Assembly: GCA_021737785.1 (NCBI GenBank)
Contig: JAIPDI010000051.1
Location: 1 to 36,118 of the forward strand
DNA: 36,118 nt
Direction: 5' to 3'
Source of the DNA: Deltaproteobacteria bacterium
GTDB lineage: Bacteria; Desulfobacterota; DSM-4660; Desulfatiglandales; Desulfatiglandaceae
This document shows, piece by piece, positions 25,549-35,385 of this stretch (position 1 is its first letter; every line of letters starts with the position of its first letter). The notes below the pieces were generated by a model, which ran no database searches, was not told the DNA's origin, and saw only the letters and a list, made by a program, of their open reading frames with translations. The position numbers and the translations under genes are program-made.

Positions 25549-26754
25549 TCAGAGAGGGCTGACAGTAATCCTGTAAGTACCCCCTATCTTTTCCCTGAGC
25601 TGAATCCTTATCTTGTTTTTTGGATCCTCGAAAGTATCCTTTCCACCGATGTCGTATGCCGCTCCTTCCAGATGGGGTATGGAGGGATTTGCGTCCATCA
25701 GCCTGACGGGTGCCTTTCCATGGCGGCATTCGGCGATCCGATCATCGGCAACCATGATCAGGATACCGCTTCCGGGCAGGTTCTTGTCGAATCCGATGGG
25801 CTGGCGGTTTTCCACCAGATAATAGGTGGCAGCAGAAATCGGAATTTTGACCACCAGGGTTTCAGCCGAGCCTTCTTCGAGAGGGTCCAGCATGAGTTCA
25901 GCCCTCTCTCCCGGTCTCACGATCTTGATCTTGGATGTATCCAACCAGTTCAATCGCATCTTGGTCCAGGAGGAGAGGCCGGGCGGCGGCAGGTTCCACC
26001 TATAGAAATGGCACGACATCGGGTCCCAGAAACCCATATTGATGATCGCATCGAGGAAGGTTTTGCGCATAGGGCCGGGTTTTGCCTGCAGATCATGATC
26101 GTACAGGCATGGGACCATTCTTTTTCCTTCCCTCACCCCCCCGAGGATGTGGGCGACATCATGAAACAGGGTTCCAAGATGGGCCTGGAAACAGAAAATA
26201 GCGACCCCTCCCTTGACACTCTCGCCGCTGGCGAGTTTCAGGGAGTCTTTCGAGCCCCATCCAAGCATGCCGGGGTATCCACATAGCCCGATCATCCCGT
26301 ATTCCTGAAGGCTTGCCTTCATGAAGATGACCGTAAAAGAATATCGGGAAAAGTCCACCTCCTTGTCCGCTTGGTGGAGCGCATCATCGATCAATTCCCT
26401 TACCCTGGACTTGTCCACCTGGAGATTCCGGGACGAGATCCTGTATCGACTGACGGGCTTCGGCATTTTTATCCAATCTTTCGTTACATCAACCTCCAGA
26501 GAAACTTTCCCGTAGGACATCTCTCTTATGTAGGCGTTCAAGTGCCTGGTGAATCGCATTTGAACGCGGTTCTTGTCCACGGAATTATCTACGTCGGAAA
26601 AGGTTACCAGGATAACGATACCCTTCACGCTGGTTTTCCCCTGCAGCCCCAATTCTTTCACGGATGCATCCCGTCCGAAGGCAGGGGGCAGGATCGCCAT
26701 GAAAGCAAGAATTGCGGCTCCAAAGAGCAGGAAAGAATAAGCTGTCTTGTTCAT
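25549..26754 (-). CDS. Secreted M6-like metallopeptidase-family protein with HDxxH motif
   Basis: A 401-residue exported protein: signal peptide MNKTAYSFLLFGAAILAFMA with cleavage near AFG (residue 27). The body matches M6 (immune-inhibitor A-like) proteins: GIVILVTFSDVD (45-56), YIREMSYGKVSLEVDV (75-90) and a zinc-site-like segment TLFHDVAHILGG with His198 and His202. The usual HExxHxxGxxH is altered: the catalytic Glu is Asp199 and the third His position is Arg208; a later YDHD (218-221) might supply a ligand. It may be a weak or inactive protease or a binding protein. GGGAGG precedes ATG 26754, which rules out the longer frame. It stands alone. Confidence 0.8.
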   Translation of the reverse strand: MNKTAYSFLLFGAAILAFMAILPPAFGRDASVKELGLQGKTSVKGIVILVTFSDVDNSVDKNRVQMRFTRHLNAYIREMSYGKVSLEVDVTKDWIKMPKPVSRYRISSRNLQVDKSRVRELIDDALHQADKEVDFSRYSFTVIFMKASLQEYGMIGLCGYPGMLGWGSKDSLKLASGESVKGGVAIFCFQAHLGTLFHDVAHILGGVREGKRMVPCLYDHDLQAKPGPMRKTFLDAIINMGFWDPMSCHFYRWNLPPPGLSSWTKMRLNWLDTSKIKIVRPGERAELMLDPLEEGSAETLVVKIPISAATYYLVENRQPIGFDKNLPGSGILIMVADDRIAECRHGKAPVRLMDANPSIPHLEGAAYDIGGKDTFEDPKNKIRIQLREKIGGTYRITVSPL

Positions 26755-26858
26755 CTTTACCTCCCACCTATTCGGTTGCGGTTGCGTCCCAAACGAAGGA
26801 TTGGACAATCTCCTTATACCACGCACTCAGCCCATGGGGTCGGATTTTTTTGCCCTGA

Positions 26859-27288
26859 ATGGCTCAGCCGAGGAAATTGGAATTGGAAGAGTGCATGCAA
26901 CAATTTGGGCTGGAAATGAATTCCCAAAAGACCCGCCTGAATGAGTTCGGCCGATTTGCTATGGAGAACCGAGCGAAGCGAGGTGAAGGAAAGCCTGAAA
27001 CGTTTGATTTTATGGGATTTATGCACATTTGCGCAAAGACCTGGAAGGATGGCTATCGCACTGTGAAGCGCAAGAGTATATCGAGGCGTCTTCGCCGAAA
27101 GGTCAGAGAGGTGGGAGAAAAGCTCAGGACATCAGGCCTGCTATTTTGCCTATGCCGTTCACAGATTTATCGCTACCATACCATGGAACGCTTTTTTCAT
27201 CCAATCAAAATCGAAACACCACAACATATGGCATGATTCCTTGAGTGTTCAGGATTTGGATAGGCGGGGCCATCGTGGCTTTATGTAA
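26859..27288 (+). pseudogene. Fragment of a group II intron reverse transcriptase/maturase
   Basis: The translation contains the C-terminal part of LtrA-type reverse transcriptases: FGLEMNSQKTRLNEFGRF, ENRAKRGEGKPETFDFMGF and MHICAKTW, followed by the basic maturase stretch KRKSISRRLRRKVREVGEKL. The polymerase palm with YADD is absent upstream. After about 27118 the match seems to jump to another frame (GHQACYFAYAVHRF), ending with TAA at 27288. So this is a truncated and frameshifted remnant of a mobile intron. I see no domain V-like structure after it. Confidence 0.75.
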
Positions 27289-27685: not shown

Positions 27686-28768
27686 CTATTGCCCCTTCAG
27701 CTCGCGGTCGCAAACAATGCAGGTGCCCGCGCGTCGACTGCTTCGCCGATACTTTGCCACTGCCGTTTCGATGTGACCGCTCACATCATTCCCCTTCAAC
27801 ATGTCGGAGATGACCGCGACCGCCCCTGCCCTCGGCATGGCGTACATCAGTCCTCGCGCACCCTCATACGAGCAGTTCAACGCAGCAAGAGCCTGCCCCC
27901 AACGCAAGGCTCGGACTACCGCCTTTTGACATCTTGTCAGGTTCAGCAAGCGAGTTCGGTCGGAGAGCAAAGCGTGAACGAATCCAGCGGAACACCAGTC
28001 GCCGCTTCCAGCAGCATCTTTGAGTCGCGGAGCGGGAACAGCGGGCAACTCCTCTTCATGAACAGTCTTCCGACCTTGTCGAATCGTAACCGTCAATCCG
28101 GCACTGCCGCGGGTCTCTATCTCTACTGGAACTTCCGCATCAGTGGCGGCATCCTGCACACTCGACAGTCTCTCGTGGGAATACTTGAAAACGTGGCACG
28201 CATGTAAGCACTCATCAAACAAGCCGGGGTCTTTGATGCCGGACGGCTCGAATACGACAAGTGCCCCATTCTGTCGCGCATGAGTGGCAATCTCAAGGTT
28301 CGCCCGAGCGACCCGATCAAAATAGAACAACGATGCAGATGGTATCGACGCGACGAGTTCGTTGAGATCCCGCTGAAGCCATGGACGATAGTTCGCGGTG
28401 TGAACTCCACATTTGGGACAGATTCGGCTGAACCGGTGCCGTGCAGCCCCCTGTCCGTTGAATACGATCTCCTGAAAGACGATCGGGGTCTGCGCAGTTG
28501 TCTCTCGCAAAAGGAACCGCGTGTCGACCGACCAGTGCTCCAAATCCTTGACGAGCTCACGCCCGGGCTGATCATCGCCAATACGAGCTATCGGTGCGGA
28601 TTTCCACCCAAGGTATGACAAAATCGCCAAGACGTTGCCGCAGGAACCGCCGGCAAAGCGCCGTTCCGTTGTGCGCCCATTGATCGACCGCACGATATCC
28701 AAGGCGACAAAGCCAGCACCAAAGCACCACTCCTTAGCCATTACTCTTGATCTAGATTGTTGGGGCAT
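27686..28768 (-). CDS. PfkB/ribokinase-family kinase with two CxxC motifs
   Basis: A 360-residue PfkB-type sugar/nucleoside kinase. FGAGFVALDIV (16-26), FAGGSCGNVLAILSYLGW (38-55) and ARIGDDQPGRELVKDL (61-76) form the N-terminal substrate region; DAAGSGDWCSAGF (251-263) is the ATP/catalytic motif with Asp257 as the base. Unusual for the family are an insert HRFSRICPKCGVHTANYRP with Cys117/Cys120 and a C-terminal CIVC (350-353), together able to bind zinc. ATG 28768 is chosen for GGAG seven bases upstream; starts at 28789 or 28777 are possible. It is the last gene of the cassette, and a truncated relative precedes it. The substrate is unknown. Confidence 0.82.
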   Translation of the reverse strand: MPQQSRSRVMAKEWCFGAGFVALDIVRSINGRTTERRFAGGSCGNVLAILSYLGWKSAPIARIGDDQPGRELVKDLEHWSVDTRFLLRETTAQTPIVFQEIVFNGQGAARHRFSRICPKCGVHTANYRPWLQRDLNELVASIPSASLFYFDRVARANLEIATHARQNGALVVFEPSGIKDPGLFDECLHACHVFKYSHERLSSVQDAATDAEVPVEIETRGSAGLTVTIRQGRKTVHEEELPAVPAPRLKDAAGSGDWCSAGFVHALLSDRTRLLNLTRCQKAVVRALRWGQALAALNCSYEGARGLMYAMPRAGAVAVISDMLKGNDVSGHIETAVAKYRRSSRRAGTCIVCDRELKGQ

Positions 28769-28873
28769 ATCATTCTCCATACAAATCATGCCTTATAGCA
28801 CTCAAAGGTCGTCTCAGCCGGGACATTGCCGGTCAGGTTATATCCCTGGGCATCGACGTGAACAGCGCCCACC

Positions 28874-29128
28874 TTAATCCGGAGACCCCCCGCGACGCCA
28901 CTGCGACAGCCCGTAGGCAGCAAGTAGAGCCCCCAAAGACAGAAGCTTCGACGACATCGCCGACGAAATCGGAGCCGATTGCCAGCCGAGGTCGCGGAGC
29001 ACGGCGAACACGTTCCCGCACGTCCCGCCCGCCCAGTAGCAGGGCTCTTCCGGCCGTTCCTCGGAGAGAACAAAAGCGAGAGCCAAGAGGCCGATCTCGG
29101 CCGCTAATTGTGCTGCGTCTGCGGTCAT
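28874..29128 (-). pseudogene. Truncated, frameshifted PfkB kinase copy
   Basis: The ATG at 29128 overlaps the stop of the upstream gene (ATGA), as an intact cassette gene would. The product starts like a PfkB kinase (GLLALAFVLSEERPEEP) and contains CYWAGGTCGNVFAVLRDLGW, clearly related to AGGSCGNVLAILSYLGW in the following full-length kinase. After SAPIS the frame leaves the family; a neighbouring frame continues with GSDFVGDVVEA, consistent with a frameshift near 28965. Nothing like the catalytic GAGD end remains before the next kinase begins at 28768. It is a dead duplicate of the downstream kinase. Confidence 0.75.
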
Positions 29129-30246
29129 GGGCTGTTTTTCCATTCGGCGTCTTCCCTGCTGCCGTGCGGCGCGTAAGCCTCGCCACTTAGCCAAACGTGC
29201 ACCAGTTCCGCGGTCTGTGCACCCCAGACCGCATCAAGATGGGCGAAGTTGACCGAATAGCTGAGGGTCTCCACGTACATGATGGTGAAGTCCCGTTCAA
29301 GGGCGGCCATGAGGGCGCCCACTGCAAGCGCCTTGCTGCCCACCGGTGACAGGATAATCTGGGAGCCGCCGATGTCGGCGAAAACCCGCTTCCGAGAGTC
29401 GTCCATCCGGAGGATGGTGCGATAGAGGTCGAGGGGACTCCGTTGGCTGGCATAGACGATGTCCCGGCTATCGACCCGCCAAGTGTTTTCGAATTCCTCC
29501 GAGTAATGCTCGATTAGCCGGTCGGGGAGACGCGGGTCGTCGTCCGCCGGGAATGGGAGGATCGGGCAGAAAGCGTGTGGCTGGACCCGCTGCCGGATTC
29601 GCTCCAGCACGGGCCGCTTTCCCCTGGCGAGTTGGGGCATCCAGAGGCGCGCCGCCCGGGATCTCGCGTCCAGCCCCCAACCGCCCTTGAACCCGTGGAC
29701 CGCGTCCGCTACATCGGTCGGGGTTGAGCGGATCTCGGCGTCCGTCCCCGGATTTTCGGCTACTAAGAGATGGAGGTTCAGGCCCTGGCGCTCTGTCACG
29801 GTGAGGAGGTATCGGACGATTGGGAATGCCACGCCGATGGAGAGCGCGCTGAAATCGACAAAGAGGTCTGTCAGGTCGTCGATAGCGAGATCGCTGACGA
29901 GGCCGACAGCCGTCCGTCCTCCGACGACCGCGTTGTCGGCCGCGAAGACGTCGAGTCGGATGACGGAGCAGTCCGGGAGGAGCCGGCGAAGGGCCTCTTC
30001 GTTTTGGTCACCCCGGGCGACAAGCTCGGCGTCCGGGCGGGGCCGTTCTTCCCGGACAAAGTACCCTCGGGCCCGCCCGTCGGCATATTGGGCTATGTGC
30101 CTTGCGACAGCCGTTGACCGCGGGTCGAATCCGGCGCCGGCTACGAGCAGCACCCGTCGGTCGGGCTGGGAGAGGTATTCCCGCAGAAACTTATCGGTGT
30201 GCTGTCCCAGGTGATAGATGCAGCGGCCCCAGCGCAGATTGGTCAT
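29125..30246 (-). CDS. Cassette protein with Rossmann-like and CARF-like segments, function unknown
   Basis: A 373-residue protein not assignable to a named family by eye. Residues 32-43 (VLLVAGAGFDPR) look like a Rossmann-type strand-loop with a glycine-rich turn; TDLFVDFSALSIGVAFP (126-142) and LNLHLLVAENPG (156-167) look like further parallel strands. The C-terminal part has SPLDLYRTIL (270-279), then VFADIGGSQIILSPVGSKALAVGALMAALE (288-317) and IMYVET, reminiscent of the strand-G-x-K-helix core of CARF-type ligand sensors. That comparison is an inference. The ATG overlaps the ATPase stop, and its own stop overlaps the kinase remnant (both ATGA), so it is an integral part of the cassette. 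GC content is high (41 of 60 in the line at 29941). Confidence 0.75.
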   Translation of the reverse strand: MTNLRWGRCIYHLGQHTDKFLREYLSQPDRRVLLVAGAGFDPRSTAVARHIAQYADGRARGYFVREERPRPDAELVARGDQNEEALRRLLPDCSVIRLDVFAADNAVVGGRTAVGLVSDLAIDDLTDLFVDFSALSIGVAFPIVRYLLTVTERQGLNLHLLVAENPGTDAEIRSTPTDVADAVHGFKGGWGLDARSRAARLWMPQLARGKRPVLERIRQRVQPHAFCPILPFPADDDPRLPDRLIEHYSEEFENTWRVDSRDIVYASQRSPLDLYRTILRMDDSRKRVFADIGGSQIILSPVGSKALAVGALMAALERDFTIMYVETLSYSVNFAHLDAVWGAQTAELVHVWLSGEAYAPHGSREDAEWKNSP

Positions 30247-32168
30247 GGCCGCGGATCCTCAAGCATCGCGGCTAGTGCCTGCGGGGTGCTCTCGACGAAG
30301 CCACCCCGCTTCAGGGCCAAACCATGCTTCAGGACAACCATGCCACCGAGCTCGATGAGGCACCACTCTTTCCGTTTGCACGGGTAGTGCGGTACCAGGG
30401 TGACGGCGTTGTAGGCGACGCCGAACTGGAGCACGTGCGCGAGTTCGGGGTGGGAGTCAGGGAGCGCGTCGAAATCCTCCTGGAGGATACCGAAGGCGTT
30501 CGGCGTGAGCCACCCGTTCGGCTGTTCCGTCACCTCGACGCACCGAGCCGCAATCGCGGTGACCAGCCGGCGGACGAGGAGGTGCTGGGGGAAGTTCCAC
30601 CCTTCGATGATCTGCTCGCCTCGCTTGCGGAGGAGCTGATGCTGAGTGGTGGGGGTCAAAGATGCCGGTTTGGAGCGTATGATCTGCGTCGCGGAGGTCT
30701 CGACGAGAATGGCCGCGAGCTGGAGGAACTGCTCGACATTCTCCGAGCTGGCGTCGCACAGGTCGTCGATGCCGTAGTAAAAGGGTCGGTCGAACCTCTG
30801 GAGGAGGTGGAGCCGCGCCGCCTCGTAAACCGAAGAATTCGCGGAGACCGGCTGTGACGGCTCCTGGTCGTACTCGGTCCCGAAGAGGCTGGGGCCCCTG
30901 CGCCGCTTGTCGTAGCGGTGGAGCATGACGGCGACCATCGCAAGGCCGACGTCCTCGTCGACCGGTCTGCCGCCCACCCGGAACTCGGCGACCTTTCTCT
31001 CGAAGGTCTCTCGGCTGCTATCGGCGACGTTGAGCCGTCGCTGCGCCGCGTCGACCATCTCTCGCAGCCGCCGGCACTTCGACGACGCGAGGGTTGGATC
31101 CTCATCGCTGAGTAAGTCCCCGAGGACCACCAGATCGCGGGCGCTGAGGAGCGGCATCCGCCGGAGGTAGCGGCCGGCCATGTCCTTCGCTATACGGCGG
31201 AAGTTTGTCCGGTTTTCCCGCCGCGGCCCGCTGCTTTGAAGGAGAACCACCTCTGTCTCCCGCTCTTGGCTGAGACCGGGGTAGCTCGCGGCGTCCGAGA
31301 GGTCCTTGGTAACCGCGGCGAGCGCTTCCTGGGGGAGGAGCACGTCGAACCGGGCGATCATCCATCTGGCGATCCGGAGCTCCCGCCGGATAAGCCACCG
31401 CTGTAGTGCGTGGAACTGTTCTGGGTGGAGGACGTGGGCGTCGTCGAGGATCGCGAGTGGGCGGAGCTCGAGGGTACGCTTCTGACCCTCGGGCCCGACC
31501 CGCACCCGGACGTGCTCAATGATGTCGAACGGCTGGTACACGGCAGTCGCCTCCGGCGGGAGGTCGGCCTCGGTCGGAGCTATCAGTGCCCCTATCACCT
31601 GGTAGAGGGCCTTCTCGACCGCCCGGGCGCGGCGCCCGATGTCTTCTCCCTTCACCCCACCTATGGACTCCACGATGGACTCGGCGCCGGCCCGCGGCAC
31701 CACCTCAATGTTGTCCGGCGCCACCCCGGCGGCGGCGAGGTGGCGGAGCCAGCCGAGGACGGCGCGGGCCTGGATGAGGGCGGTCATGAGCCGAAGCTTG
31801 AGCGACTCTCCGTACGGGAACTCCCAGAACTCGCGGTAGTCGGTTTCAAGCGGAAGCCGGCAACCGAGGACAGCCGGCTGCTCGCCGTTTAGCGCCCCGC
31901 ACTCGGTGAGCGCGCCGACTAAGGCATGGTAGGTGGATACTGAGCTGTTCCGGAGGAGCGCGGCGAGACTCGGGAACTCGAAGAGTCGCGCCAGGGTCGT
32001 CTTCCCGCTCCCGGGGGTGCCCCGCATGAGCACGAGCCGGTCGTAGAGCCGGCCGGCATGCCCTGGCTTCTTCAGGTAGAAGGTGACCGGCTCAGGGCTG
32101 ACGATGGCGAGGAAAGCCTCGTCATCGCGAAGGAACTCGGTGGCGCGGCGCTCGAATGGGTTATCCAT
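30243..32168 (-). CDS. AAA+/ORC-CDC6-like P-loop ATPase of the cassette
   Basis: A 641-residue ATPase. Walker A is GTPGSGKTTL at 50-59 (after LVLMR), Walker B is LAILDDAH at 238-245, then a long helical C-terminal part with no transmembrane segment. A region around 335-350 (QSSGPRRENRTNFRRIAKD) is rich in arginines and may hold sensor residues. The architecture, with a single early P-loop and a long all-alpha tail, fits the ORC/CDC6-like or STAND-like ATPases used as switches in conflict systems; I recall an ORC-CDC6-like Pfam family of this kind but cannot verify membership. The start is ATG 32168, with GGGAGGA upstream, 13 bases after the phosphoribosyltransferase-like gene. It ends overlapping the next gene (ATGA). 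GC is very high (48 of 60 in the line at 31681). Confidence 0.82.
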   Translation of the reverse strand: MDNPFERRATEFLRDDEAFLAIVSPEPVTFYLKKPGHAGRLYDRLVLMRGTPGSGKTTLARLFEFPSLAALLRNSSVSTYHALVGALTECGALNGEQPAVLGCRLPLETDYREFWEFPYGESLKLRLMTALIQARAVLGWLRHLAAAGVAPDNIEVVPRAGAESIVESIGGVKGEDIGRRARAVEKALYQVIGALIAPTEADLPPEATAVYQPFDIIEHVRVRVGPEGQKRTLELRPLAILDDAHVLHPEQFHALQRWLIRRELRIARWMIARFDVLLPQEALAAVTKDLSDAASYPGLSQERETEVVLLQSSGPRRENRTNFRRIAKDMAGRYLRRMPLLSARDLVVLGDLLSDEDPTLASSKCRRLREMVDAAQRRLNVADSSRETFERKVAEFRVGGRPVDEDVGLAMVAVMLHRYDKRRRGPSLFGTEYDQEPSQPVSANSSVYEAARLHLLQRFDRPFYYGIDDLCDASSENVEQFLQLAAILVETSATQIIRSKPASLTPTTQHQLLRKRGEQIIEGWNFPQHLLVRRLVTAIAARCVEVTEQPNGWLTPNAFGILQEDFDALPDSHPELAHVLQFGVAYNAVTLVPHYPCKRKEWCLIELGGMVVLKHGLALKRGGFVESTPQALAAMLEDPRP

Positions 32169-32181
32169 GGTTATTCCTCCC

Positions 32182-33303
32182 TCATGTGTGCCGCTGGCGG
32201 CGGCGGAAGAGCGGCCGCATGGAGTGCTTACCCTTCTCGCCCGGGGTGTCGGCCCACAGCAGGGAGAGCGAGTTGTTCGGCGTATTGTGCTCAAGGACCA
32301 GTGGCAGGGCGCACTTCCCGAACCCGAGCCGGGCGTCCTCGCCGCCGAGCTTCATGTGCTTTGTCTCGATCACGTCGTCGTAGTAATTCTCAACGAGCTT
32401 CAGGAATTCTCCGTGATGTGCCTGATCCACCGGGAAGCTCTCCGGGAGGACCATGCCATAGGAGAACTTGACCCGTTCGAACCAGTCCTGGCCGGCATCC
32501 CGCCGCTCCTTGAGCACACCCGCGTGCCGCTGCTCAGCGGTTTCCCTCGCCCGATGCGTCGCGAGGTAGTGGTGGACACAGAGTACCCACGTGGGTTCGA
32601 AGTGGGTGCCCGCCACGCCGGCCTCCTCGACGTCGTCCCAGAACCGGAGCATCTTCCCATTCCAGCGGTTCTTATCCTTCTCCCACCGCAGCAGCGTGGT
32701 ACCGCTAGCAATGAAGTCGTCGACCAGGAAGACGAATGCGAACTGGGCCTCGGGATCTTTCAGGTCATCCTGCAGGTCCTTGAGCAGGTCGTCCCACTTC
32801 GCCTTGTTGATCCGGGGGGCCGTGACGACCTGTTCGTTGCTCACCAAGCCGGCGTTCGCCCGCCGGAACACGTCGATACGCGCCCCATCGCTCAACTCGA
32901 TGAAGAGGGTCTGGCGGAGAAGCCGGTCGTATAGCGCTGCCGCTTTCGTGTTCGCCCACAACCTGTATATAGGGACGTCGGACTGGGCGGCCGCCTTCTG
33001 CATCAACCGCCACTGCACCGTCTCCGGGAAAAAGAGTTCGACCAGGTGGTTCATCTCCCCGGGGCTCACGTACACCAGATACTTTCGGACGAAGCCGTAG
33101 GCCGTCTCCCGCTCGGCGAGGGTCGGGAACTGCTGGAGCCAGTCGGCGAGGCTCTCCACGAACCGCGCCCCGGCTCTGAAGTCCTGATAGCCGTCGTACT
33201 TCATCTTCGACATCAGGTCGAGCCAGGCGAACTCCCTCCGTGACTGGTCGGTGCCCCACTTCATTATCTCGCTCAACTTGCCGAGTATGAATTCCTGGTT
33301 CAT
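32182..33303 (-). CDS. Phosphoribosyltransferase-like protein of the cassette
   Basis: A 373-residue protein, longer than ordinary type I PRTases (about 180-220). The PRPP-binding loop is clear: FVFLVDDFIASGTTL at 190-204, two acidic residues followed by A-S-G-T-T. The N-terminal 110 residues are helical, and the C-terminal region (GKCALPLVLEHNTPNNSLSLLW, then RPLFRRRQRH) looks like a family-specific hood. It resembles a conflict-associated PRTase group I recall as PRTase-CE; this needs a profile search. No purine/pyrimidine salvage partner lies nearby, so ordinary salvage is unlikely. The ATG overlaps the stop of a small upstream frame (ATGA) and the gene is followed by the ATPase. Confidence 0.8.
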   Translation of the reverse strand: MNQEFILGKLSEIMKWGTDQSRREFAWLDLMSKMKYDGYQDFRAGARFVESLADWLQQFPTLAERETAYGFVRKYLVYVSPGEMNHLVELFFPETVQWRLMQKAAAQSDVPIYRLWANTKAAALYDRLLRQTLFIELSDGARIDVFRRANAGLVSNEQVVTAPRINKAKWDDLLKDLQDDLKDPEAQFAFVFLVDDFIASGTTLLRWEKDKNRWNGKMLRFWDDVEEAGVAGTHFEPTWVLCVHHYLATHRARETAEQRHAGVLKERRDAGQDWFERVKFSYGMVLPESFPVDQAHHGEFLKLVENYYDDVIETKHMKLGGEDARLGFGKCALPLVLEHNTPNNSLSLLWADTPGEKGKHSMRPLFRRRQRHT

Positions 33304-33464
33304 TGTCCCCTCACCATTGGTCGCTTTTCCAGACCGAACCGCAGCTCGCTCTCATTCGCCTCCAGTCGCCGACAATGATTCAACAGCAGCCATGCCAGGC
33401 CAGATTTAAGAACGGTTTCAGGTCCGCGCACAGGCATTCCAACAGCGTTACAAAGTCTTACCAT
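33300..33464 (-). CDS. Small hypothetical protein coupled to the PRTase-like gene
   Basis: A 54-codon frame from ATG 33464 (GAGGAG about 9 bases upstream) whose TGA overlaps the PRTase-like ATG. It reads MVRLCNAVGMPVRGPETVLK and continues to RRLEANESELRFGLEKRPM. The same frame stays open to 33557, overlapping the end of the SIS-HAD gene, and the extra residues (YEGASRTYYCEEFG) also look coding, so this could be the C-terminal remnant of a longer lost gene. I do not recognise it. The coupling argues that it is translated. Confidence 0.5.
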   Translation of the reverse strand: MVRLCNAVGMPVRGPETVLKSGLAWLLLNHCRRLEANESELRFGLEKRPMVRGQ

Positions 33465-33504
33465 CCTCCCAAACTCCTCGCAATAATAGGTGCGTGAAGC
33501 ACCC

Positions 33505-35385
33505 TCATACGCTATTCCCCGAGTCTTCGATTGCATCCAGGTTGATGCGCACAGCACCCGAGTGGGGCTGAAGCGCGGTCAAGTACCGAATGGTAGCAGA
33601 AGGTCCAAGACACCCTCGCGGGGTGAGGTTCCAGCATGAGCTTGGGGCCGAAGAAACTTCATCGACGCTTAGGGAGAAACGGTGTCGAAGCAACTCGAAG
33701 TCATTTCCGGGCCACCCCCCTCGGTCGCCGATGCAGAGCAACATTCGAGGGGATACAAGCTCTGCCAATTGTTGCACGACCGCCATTTTGGATGTCTCTG
33801 TCTCAATGATGTCGATGGAATGCGCCGAGCATAGCACTCGAGCACTCGGGACTCCCGCTACCAAAACCATGTCCATGAGATGTTGATGCAGGTCCACGCG
33901 TGGTTCGGCATCGTTCGGGGTTACCGTTATCTGCGAGGGTCGCAGTTCGATGGTAGCAAGGGATGCGAGCAACTTATCCTCGGTGAGTATCTTCTCTATT
34001 GCTATCATCGTGGCTGCGGCGGGCCTCGTCTTGTCGGGTTTTGTGTCGTCTGCAAGGGTGCCTACGTCGGCACCATTGTAGTATCCAACATACACCTTCT
34101 TCCAGATATTTGAGGGAAGTGCATCTCGTAGGGCCTGGCGAACCGAACGCCCCCGCCCAGTTGCAATACCTATGGATAGGCCGAGTTTGAGAACGCGCAA
34201 CAAAACGTCAGCGGTGGCAGACGAAACCGGGTCGAAGCGTTCAGACTGATGGACGAGAGTGCCGTCGTAGTCGAGAACGACTGCACCAATGTCGGCCTCC
34301 GCGAGTTCTTTTCGAAAGGACTCGTACTCACTGATGTAGATGGAGCGAACGGCGTCAGAAGTAGAGTTCAAGCGCCGTAGCTTCCGATCGACGGCAAGGG
34401 GGACATTGATCTTGCTCTTGAAGCTATGGGAGGGTGCAAGATGAAACAACCGCCTCCCGAAGTCAGGCACAGTTGGTTTACCCGGATCGGTGCCAAGGCG
34501 CTCAGCAACCTTTAGCGTCCAGTGAAGGGCTTGGGCGAGGAGATCAATTGTGGCAGAGGGACCCTTTTGTTTTGTAATGAGTCGGACCACTGGCACGTCT
34601 TTGGGGAGGAGCCGAAGGGTCTTCATGGCAAGCGCTTGGGTTTCGGGCGTGATTAACGTAAGAACGAATGTGGATGAATAGCGCTGCGCGAGCCAGAGAT
34701 GCCTCCCATGGCCGAAGTTGCGGTAGTCTGAGATTTGAACATGGAGGAGCGCCGACTCGTGCAATCTCGACTCAAGGTCAGTCGCTATTGGCGACGACCA
34801 ACCAGCGTGAAGAACGACGACGGAATCGCGCCCTTTCCATGAATCGTCAATGAGCGGGCGCTGGGGTTCTGTGAGCGGATCGAAGCAACCATAAGCACGG
34901 GCGATAATGACCATCGTCGCCAACAGTGAGTTCGTGGCAAGATATCCGTCCTTCCCCGACGGAATAGGATCGTCCAACACGTATCCCCGGGAAAATGCAC
35001 AGACAGCAGAAGCAAGCGGGCTACCCTTTTGGGTGCAGATCGCGCCGATGCTAGGGACTTCGGCAGCAACTGCAGCTCGAGCAGCTGCAAGAACGTCCTT
35101 GTTCTTGCCTGAGGCAGACAGAAAAAGGACGCTTCGAGCGTGGAGTGCTGCTTCGTCGAGTAACAGCTCAAGCGGTGTCGCGTGCCTGCTCATGCCACGC
35201 GCGACGCGTCGATGAAGAAGGGCAGCAAAGTGAGCTGCGGCGGATGAACCTCCTGAACCAACTGCGACGAGAGATGCACGGCAGGTTTCATTGACGAAAC
35301 GCTGCATCACATCGATTGGCAAGGATGACGCCCACGTAAGCGTATCCGAGAGCGTCTTGATCTCGGAGGCGTAGCTCTTACCCAC
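33505..35385 (-). CDS. Fusion of SIS sugar-isomerase-like domains and a HAD (Cof-type) phosphatase
   Basis: A 626-residue two-part protein. Residues about 15-310 form a double SIS fold like the isomerase half of GlmS: SLVAVGSGGSSAAAHFAAL (38-56), VLFLSASGKNKDVLAAARAA (86-105) and a second lobe VVVLHAGWSSPIATDLESRL (189-208). Residues about 365-600 are a HAD phosphatase of the Cof/PMM type: motif I LDYDGTL (Asp372, Asp374), motif II ATGRG (408-412), Lys533 and motif IV GDRGGWPGND (553-562). SIS domains bind or isomerise phosphosugars and HADs remove phosphate, so the fusion could convert and dephosphorylate a sugar phosphate. The start is GTG 35385 with GGAGGA upstream. It is the first gene of the cassette, with GC (about 55-60%) nearer the genome backbone than the middle genes. 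Confidence 0.85.
   Translation of the reverse strand: MGKSYASEIKTLSDTLTWASSLPIDVMQRFVNETCRASLVAVGSGGSSAAAHFAALLHRRVARGMSRHATPLELLLDEAALHARSVLFLSASGKNKDVLAAARAAVAAEVPSIGAICTQKGSPLASAVCAFSRGYVLDDPIPSGKDGYLATNSLLATMVIIARAYGCFDPLTEPQRPLIDDSWKGRDSVVVLHAGWSSPIATDLESRLHESALLHVQISDYRNFGHGRHLWLAQRYSSTFVLTLITPETQALAMKTLRLLPKDVPVVRLITKQKGPSATIDLLAQALHWTLKVAERLGTDPGKPTVPDFGRRLFHLAPSHSFKSKINVPLAVDRKLRRLNSTSDAVRSIYISEYESFRKELAEADIGAVVLDYDGTLVHQSERFDPVSSATADVLLRVLKLGLSIGIATGRGRSVRQALRDALPSNIWKKVYVGYYNGADVGTLADDTKPDKTRPAAATMIAIEKILTEDKLLASLATIELRPSQITVTPNDAEPRVDLHQHLMDMVLVAGVPSARVLCSAHSIDIIETETSKMAVVQQLAELVSPRMLLCIGDRGGWPGNDFELLRHRFSLSVDEVSSAPSSCWNLTPRGCLGPSATIRYLTALQPHSGAVRINLDAIEDSGNSV

Follow-up and report, generated by a model that had tools for sequence, protein, structure and literature searches.

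What would bring a phosphoribosyltransferase (PRTase), a large ATPase, a putative ligand-sensing Rossmann protein and two sugar-phosphate enzymes together in one bacterial locus? The question is raised by positions 27686–35385 of a 36,118-nt stretch of DNA from a Desulfatiglandaceae genome (Deltaproteobacteria bacterium; assembly GCA_021737785.1, contig JAIPDI010000051.1), hereafter the window, meaning the whole stretch that was analysed. Five intact genes lie here on the minus strand, transcribed in the order SIS-HAD, PRTase, ATPase, CARF-like protein and PfkB. We consider it probable that this cassette serves defence in general. That it is, more specifically, a mobile anti-invader cassette, most likely directed against phages, in which a PRTase effector is coupled to a switch made of ATPase and CARF protein while sugar-phosphate enzymes act on ribosyl species, is a reading on which we are evenly divided, and our confidence in any specific chemistry is far lower.

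Five intact genes on one strand

The intact genes of the region, in transcription order, are:

33505–35385, minus strand: SIS-HAD fusion, a double-SIS phosphosugar-binding/isomerase-like part joined to a HAD-IIB phosphatase (Pfam, PDB profiles, motifs)
32182–33303, minus strand: PRTase-CE-type phosphoribosyltransferase, predicted effector (PF24390, PADLOC PRTase_III-A)
30243–32168, minus strand: ORC/Cdc6-like AAA+ ATPase, predicted sensor/switch (PF24389, Walker motifs, AlphaFold2 (AF2) model)
29125–30246, minus strand: tandem-CARF protein of the CARF6 family, predicted nucleotide-ligand sensor (PADLOC PDLC01916, AF2 model)
27686–28789 (probable start 28744), minus strand: intact PfkB sugar/nucleoside kinase (PF00294, motifs)

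Matches to Pfam and PADLOC confirmed the five minus-strand proteins named in an earlier reading of this DNA (the original prediction). Pfam families were found for four of the five, the CARF-like protein having no match there. The ATPase and CARF genes are joined by an ATGA overlap, and 13 bp separate the PRTase gene from that of the ATPase, whose likely start is the ATG at 32168 rather than the TTG at 32294 that had been called before.

The gene set is conserved and mobile

A genome-wide scan with an alignment of the PRTase, chosen as query because the CARF alignment was insufficiently conserved, yielded 292 relatives, of which the best 80, ranked by PRTase similarity, were kept. We scored 88 assessable loci with profiles built in this analysis; where the flank was too short, a locus entered the count only when SIS-HAD and PfkB were both visible, which introduces a slight bias, and four loci from plasmids or window fragments, in which genes are split or doubled, were excluded. 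The PRTase–ATPase–CARF trio was accompanied by SIS-HAD in 88/88 loci, by PfkB in 86/88 and by a NADAR glycohydrolase gene in 34/88, and both loci lacking PfkB carry NADAR. ATPase and CARF genes lie at most 25 bp apart in 91/91 loci. The order SIS-HAD, PRTase, ATPase, CARF, PfkB is found bare in 51 loci and with NADAR in nine more; 21 loci read PRTase, ATPase, CARF, SIS-HAD, PfkB, NADAR, the last on the opposite strand, and other orders are rarer. Conservation of the neighbourhood excludes chance as an explanation. In two loci some 1.5 kb of DNA interrupts the CARF or ATPase gene, probably through insertion of an element (L030:13628–15132 and L034:12883–14411).

Hosts span at least 11 phyla (Planctomycetota, Pseudomonadota, Actinomycetota, Chloroflexota, Gemmatimonadota, Bacteroidota, Verrucomicrobiota, Myxococcota, Chlamydiota, Thermodesulfobacteriota, Zixibacteria, Poribacteria), in addition to plasmids and phage-like contigs. 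None of 60 genomes from the same genus, family and order encodes the CARF protein, which is present in 4/395 genomes of the phylum, the source genome included. Searches with CARF and with SIS-HAD found the same three other genomes among these 395 (G143, G256 and G361), the SIS-HAD search adding one marginal match (6.8e-4), and the cassette is present in all three; the copy at L106 lacks PfkB and has NADAR. The genes are also inherited together on plasmids, where CARF (17 records) and PRTase (18 records) occur in the same records but for one. Three viral contigs carry the cassette next to Mu-type transposition genes, a primase with a Cas4-type exonuclease, or DNA methyltransferases; a search for the cassette PRTase in phage records gave no match.

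Such a gene set might instead be a mobile metabolic or stress operon, serving sugar-phosphate or nucleotide salvage or repair as a fitness island, in keeping with the match of SIS, HAD-IIB and PfkB to sugar-phosphate enzymes and the fructokinase-like character of PfkB. However, in all assessable loci these enzymes occur together with PRTase-CE, ORC-like ATPase and CARF6, their distribution is patchy with plasmids and phage-like contigs as carriers, Gabija and restriction-modification (R-M) genes are among the neighbours, and the cassette has no conserved transporter or pathway regulator. We consider a function outside defence quite unlikely. Nor was a salvage or polysaccharide pathway found for these genes, an outcome that the original prediction had itself raised, and their neighbourhood proved conserved.

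A predicted effector and a predicted switch

The PRTase matches PF24390 (PRTase-CE) at 1.2e-15 and 58.5 bits (curated cut-off 27) over positions 3–253 of 253, and PADLOC PRTase_III-A (PDLC02935) at 9.1e-13, the best stretch being C-terminal. It contains the acidic loop with which type I PRTases bind phosphoribosyl pyrophosphate (PRPP), here DDFIASGTT, with D196 and G201 invariant and D195 conserved to at least 90%, as well as conserved HNTPNN and RRQRH motifs. Phosphoribosyl transfer from PRPP is its predicted activity. An NCBIfam search with E up to 1 returned no family for this protein, those of nucleotide-salvage PRTases included, and searching PDB sequences with profiles of PRTase, ATPase and CARF was uninformative.

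The ATPase matches PF24389 (ORC-CDC6-like) at 1e-07 and 31.5 bits (cut-off 27), and its Walker A (P52, G53, G55, K56) and Walker B (D242) residues are invariant. Structure models were made from alignments of the window and scan loci only; that of the ATPase, with a predicted local distance difference test (pLDDT) score of 89.6, matches PABY2304 (Z 11.5), ORC-Cdc6 (11.3), MuB (10.9) and Sso Cdc6/Orc1 (10.8), so the predicted ORC/Cdc6-like fold is tied with other AAA+ folds at Z 10–11.5 (ORC/Cdc6, MuB and archaeal Walker-type ATPases). At L075:10001–13060, PRTase and ATPase occupy one open frame, a possible fusion which, if real, would support a complex of both proteins.

A tandem-CARF protein and the source of its ligand

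The CARF-like protein matches the PADLOC CARF6 profile PDLC01916 at 7.6e-109 over residues 8–354. For its AF2 model (pLDDT 94.6), Foldseek alone was uninformative, with ion-cotransporter domains first at a TM-score of about 0.25, and only re-ranking with VIA-align brought CARF proteins to the top: Csm6 (Z 11.7; 263 residues aligned, root-mean-square deviation 7.5) and Can2 (Z 11.2; 134 aligned, 3.3), then Cam1 (10.3), Cad1 (9.1) and Csa3 (9.0), the best non-CARF row reaching 8.1. Profile and model support a predicted CARF Rossmann fold, bearing out the earlier call of a Rossmann/CARF-like protein. The cassette protein shares this fold with the CARF sensors of type III CRISPR systems, but unlike them has no recognised fused effector domain, and its source genome yielded no Cas10.

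A SMODS-type cGAS/DncV-like nucleotidyltransferase (CD-NTase) was likewise not found in the source genome, nor is one among the five cassette families. Across 48 cassette genomes, clear Cas10 matches (E under 1e-20) were confined to two, other matches being weak and probably GGDEF-type cross-hits, and SMODS exceeded its cut-off in 14. With neither enzyme found in the source genome and both patchy among the 48, the usual CARF ligands lack a general source, and after this search we rejected type III CRISPR and cyclic oligonucleotide-based antiphage signalling (CBASS) as ligand source.

A well-supported CARF fold in a genome where neither Cas10 nor CD-NTase was found seems to need another ligand, which the cassette might make itself: PRTase, SIS-HAD and PfkB, whose catalytic motifs are all conserved, would produce a phosphosugar- or ribosyl-nucleotide messenger for the tandem-CARF protein, the ATPase would sense the invader and the PRTase would not be a toxin. 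There is a precedent in Ter operons, where a nucleoside-like signal is the predicted product of PRTases and a HAD phosphatase (PMC7824862); the Ter biosynthetic module resembles the cassette in this pairing, whereas the cassette has no Ter proteins and its partners differ. Yet signal-making would leave the five-gene set without a dedicated downstream effector, PRTases are named as the probable effectors in retron III-A and DprA systems (PMC12548924, PMC9122126), and a trio located beside a DNA methyltransferase (L161, below) exists without SIS-HAD and PfkB. We regard a cassette of this kind as unlikely. Also unlikely is an immune pathway in which PRTase, SIS-HAD and PfkB convert PRPP-linked metabolites into a second messenger of a new class, a phosphosugar- or ribosyl-nucleotide, that the CARF protein senses with no CRISPR polymerase or CD-NTase involved.

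Sugar-phosphate enzymes and NADAR

SIS-HAD matches PF08282 at 3.8e-07 and, weakly, the SIS family PF01380 at 7.8e-04, and its PDB profile matches are 8eol/3hba for the SIS part (about 1.6e-05) and 1ymq for the HAD part (2.2e-06). It resembles a phosphosugar isomerase/GlmS-type SIS protein joined to a BT4131-type sugar phosphatase, with invariant GG, D97, E210, DYDGT and GD..GND. PfkB matches PF00294 at 9.7e-17, is closest to fructokinases (5ey7 at 5e-19 with the family profile) and has conserved GG...N and GSGD motifs (G32/G33, N37, G246, G248, D249). Catalytic motifs are conserved across all enzyme families of the cassette. The window PfkB (27686–28789) also contains a mid-protein CPxCG and a C-terminal CxxC, conserved in many cassette PfkBs, which look like a zinc site, unusual for the PfkB family.

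The frequent third partner, NADAR, belongs to a family that hydrolyses ADP-ribosylated guanine in DNA (PMC11543638, PMC11125620); the E. coli member YbiA cleaves an N-glycosidic bond of riboflavin intermediates (PMC11543638).

PRTase relatives occur in anti-phage-type contexts

Published work regards PRTases as the probable effectors in type III-A retrons (PMC12548924), and the PRTase_III-A profiles match the cassette PRTase at 9e-13. Unlike these retrons, the cassette has ATPase and CARF proteins instead of a reverse transcriptase or winged-helix partner; no reverse transcriptase family was found among its proteins in Pfam, NCBIfam and PADLOC searches. The DprA–PRTase system (Rousset et al. 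2022) confers protection from T7 and lambda; DprA is its proposed DNA sensor and the PRTase its probable effector (PMC9122126). It is like the cassette in pairing a PRTase, the proposed effector, with a partner of DNA-binding type, but it has DprA in place of the ORC-like ATPase and neither CARF nor sugar-phosphate enzymes.

A bare PRTase–NADAR pair is present in three plasmid-collection records and in E. coli lambdoid prophages, where it sits between the prophage replication genes and the nin region (L168:4941–6574, L169:3001–4634, L170:3233–4865). The pair was matched in 63/5,426 E. coli genomes, in 43 of them over most of its length, and the newest NCBI annotation (L169) calls its products 'phosphoribosyltransferase-like anti-phage protein' and 'NADAR family anti-phage protein', labels that are annotation. 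Its PRTase has the DD..SG loop, PNN and PLxxR of the cassette PRTase, and NADAR is common to the pair and to the 34 cassettes counted above; it differs in being two genes, without ATPase, CARF, SIS-HAD or PfkB, and in a PRTase that is very distant, while the window cassette lacks NADAR, as does the whole source genome. A HipA kinase/DUF3037 pair lies near the E. coli genes in L168.

In two genomes of the same phylum, type I R-M operons contain a PRTase-CE gene between hsdM and a NADAR-hsdS fusion, with NADAR at the HsdS N-terminus, followed by hsdR (L158:5999–14215, L160:163–8353). In a reduced variant (L161:5930–11140), which lacks SIS-HAD and PfkB, a DNA C5-methyltransferase gene accompanies those for PRTase, ORC-like ATPase and CARF6; a HipA-type gene lies upstream. 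These arrangements favour a role in DNA modification or discrimination, in which a ribosyl-type base modification would mark self or attack non-self nucleic acid in an R-M-like manner, as do the resemblance of the ATPase to DNA-binding ORC/Cdc6 and MuB and the action of NADARs on DNA. However, the cassette encodes no nuclease or glycosyltransferase, no role on DNA is apparent for SIS-HAD or PfkB, and the R-M-embedded PRTases, like the NADAR-paired ones, are distant from the window PRTase. We judge this explanation quite unlikely.

Among the cassette loci themselves, both genes of Gabija adjoin the cassette in L006, and a caspase-like gene does so in L013.

A proposed anti-invader mechanism

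We favour the anti-invader reading because the cassette is mobile and patchy, has defence genes as neighbours, and has PRTase-CE relatives in three further anti-phage-type contexts. The defence function, the role of the PRTase as effector, the direction of signalling and all substrates and products, as we infer them, would be as follows. The PRTase, the ORC/Cdc6-like AAA+ ATPase and the tandem-CARF protein would form a first module, in which the most likely task of the ATPase is to recognise DNA that is invading or being replicated and to switch the PRTase, as has been proposed for DprA. The CARF protein would set or end the response on binding a nucleotide-type ligand. Once switched on, the PRTase may transfer phosphoribosyl from PRPP to a nucleobase or nucleobase-like target, with a toxic or replication-blocking outcome. 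SIS-HAD and PfkB, often with NADAR, would form a second module that builds, recycles or removes a phosphosugar or ribosyl ligand or product; the N-glycosidic bond formed by the PRTase would be the one that NADAR hydrolyses.

Several points weigh against this proposal. The cassette is known here from its genes alone, and its function is predicted. SIS, HAD and PfkB are ordinary metabolic families too. A source of cyclic oligoadenylate was found neither in the cassette nor in the source genome. NADAR was rejected as an essential partner because it is absent from the source genome. A profile alignment of cassette and NADAR-paired PRTases spans only the C-terminal GFG/PNN/PLxxR part (63% probability), and their putative kinship is indicated by motifs and shared Pfam and PADLOC profiles. 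The likeness to the DprA–PRTase system is one of described composition and roles. PADLOC families matched numbered 195 for 136 flanking proteins against 61 for 114 control proteins from random regions of some of the same genomes, but these are family matches and not a per-protein count, and since a single protein may hit many models and the control set is small, the enrichment of defence genes in the flanks is suggestive only.

The locus agrees with the original prediction in being a cassette of conflict type, conserved and mobile, that includes a PRTase, an AAA+ ATPase and a CARF protein, and PRTase-type proteins do recur in anti-phage settings. That its enzymes would make or degrade a ribosyl- or nucleotide-based molecule, under ATPase control and in response to invaders, is still a prediction. 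The statement that no characterised function was known stands for the gene set, but not for the PRTase, whose relatives have anti-phage evidence or annotation. Both the PRTase and ATPase genes exceed the curated cut-offs of their Pfam families (PF24390, PF24389), from which the cassette is set apart by its conserved SIS-HAD, PfkB and NADAR partners. The gene set was not found described in the literature searched, a search that did not cover the original descriptions of its families. Unusual in the cassette are its sensor and its sugar-phosphate enzymes, while the PRTase has distant relatives in known anti-phage systems.

PRTase-like effectors recur in several such systems with a mode of action described as unknown (PMC9122126), and the cassette, with its DNA-initiator-like ATPase, CARF protein and sugar-phosphate/ribosyl enzymes, is the most elaborate PRTase arrangement seen here. 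The recurring link between PRTase and NADAR suggests a concrete chemistry, namely the making and breaking of an N-ribosyl bond; if true, it could uncover a toxic modification or an immune messenger of a new kind.

The window copy is a mosaic

The trio of the window is 75–76% (PRTase), 74% (ATPase) and 69% (CARF) identical to that of an Isosphaeraceae metagenome-assembled genome (L024), whereas SIS-HAD is at most 40% identical to any relative and PfkB finds its best identity, 45%, in a same-phylum genome. GC content at third codon positions is 0.77–0.86 in the trio versus 0.59–0.61 in SIS-HAD and PfkB (SIS-HAD 0.59). In the PRTase tree the window copy joins L024 with a support of 98, and an approximately unbiased (AU) test rejected a grouping of SIS-HAD with the planctomycete loci L024–L026 (p-AU 3e-89). 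By these sequence measures, the window copy is a mosaic, with a planctomycete-like trio between a SIS-HAD and a PfkB of other origin.

Six or seven genes had originally been counted in the region. The two extra open reading frames (ORFs) correspond to the following features:

33304–33504, minus strand: rearranged spacer between SIS-HAD and PRTase, spanning the greater part of the 85-aa ORF (gap length, no protein match)
28874–29128 (within ORF 28874–29194), minus strand: decayed N-terminus of a second PfkB (one-frame match to planctomycete PfkBs)

ORF 28874–29194 matches the PfkBs of the planctomycete loci L026, L032 and L024 at E about 1e-12 in one frame, after which the frame is lost, and the CARF stop overlaps the ATG of this remnant by ATGA; it is not a gene but what is left of a second PfkB that came with the trio. 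The 85-aa ORF 33300–33557 has no match in Pfam, NCBIfam or the cassette families. For want of a significant match we discarded two readings of it, that of a sixth gene and that of a relic of SIS-HAD, PRTase, CARF, PfkB or NADAR. The gap between SIS-HAD and PRTase, 201 bp in the window versus at most 25 bp in 65/67 loci sharing its gene order, is likely a recombination junction. A short ORF after SIS-HAD, considered as the start of a glycosyltransferase, was dropped for lack of support.

On the simplest reading, a planctomycete-like trio with its own PfkB replaced a trio that lay between the resident SIS-HAD and PfkB, and the incoming PfkB then decayed. Two further loci contain two trios, one with a single SIS-HAD/PfkB/NADAR set (L010) and one with a patatin gene between the trios (L015). 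Together with the mosaic in the window, they suggest that the trio and SIS-HAD/PfkB are two exchangeable modules.

Surroundings of the cassette in the window

The right edge of the window (36118) is the end of the contig, 733 bp upstream of SIS-HAD, so nothing further upstream of the cassette is visible. On the other side, an ORF at 26859–27236 without a Pfam match looks by eye like the C-terminus of a group II intron maturase, and the product of 25549–26826 is like an M6-type metalloprotease (TIGR03296 at 4e-18, under the cut-off of that model).

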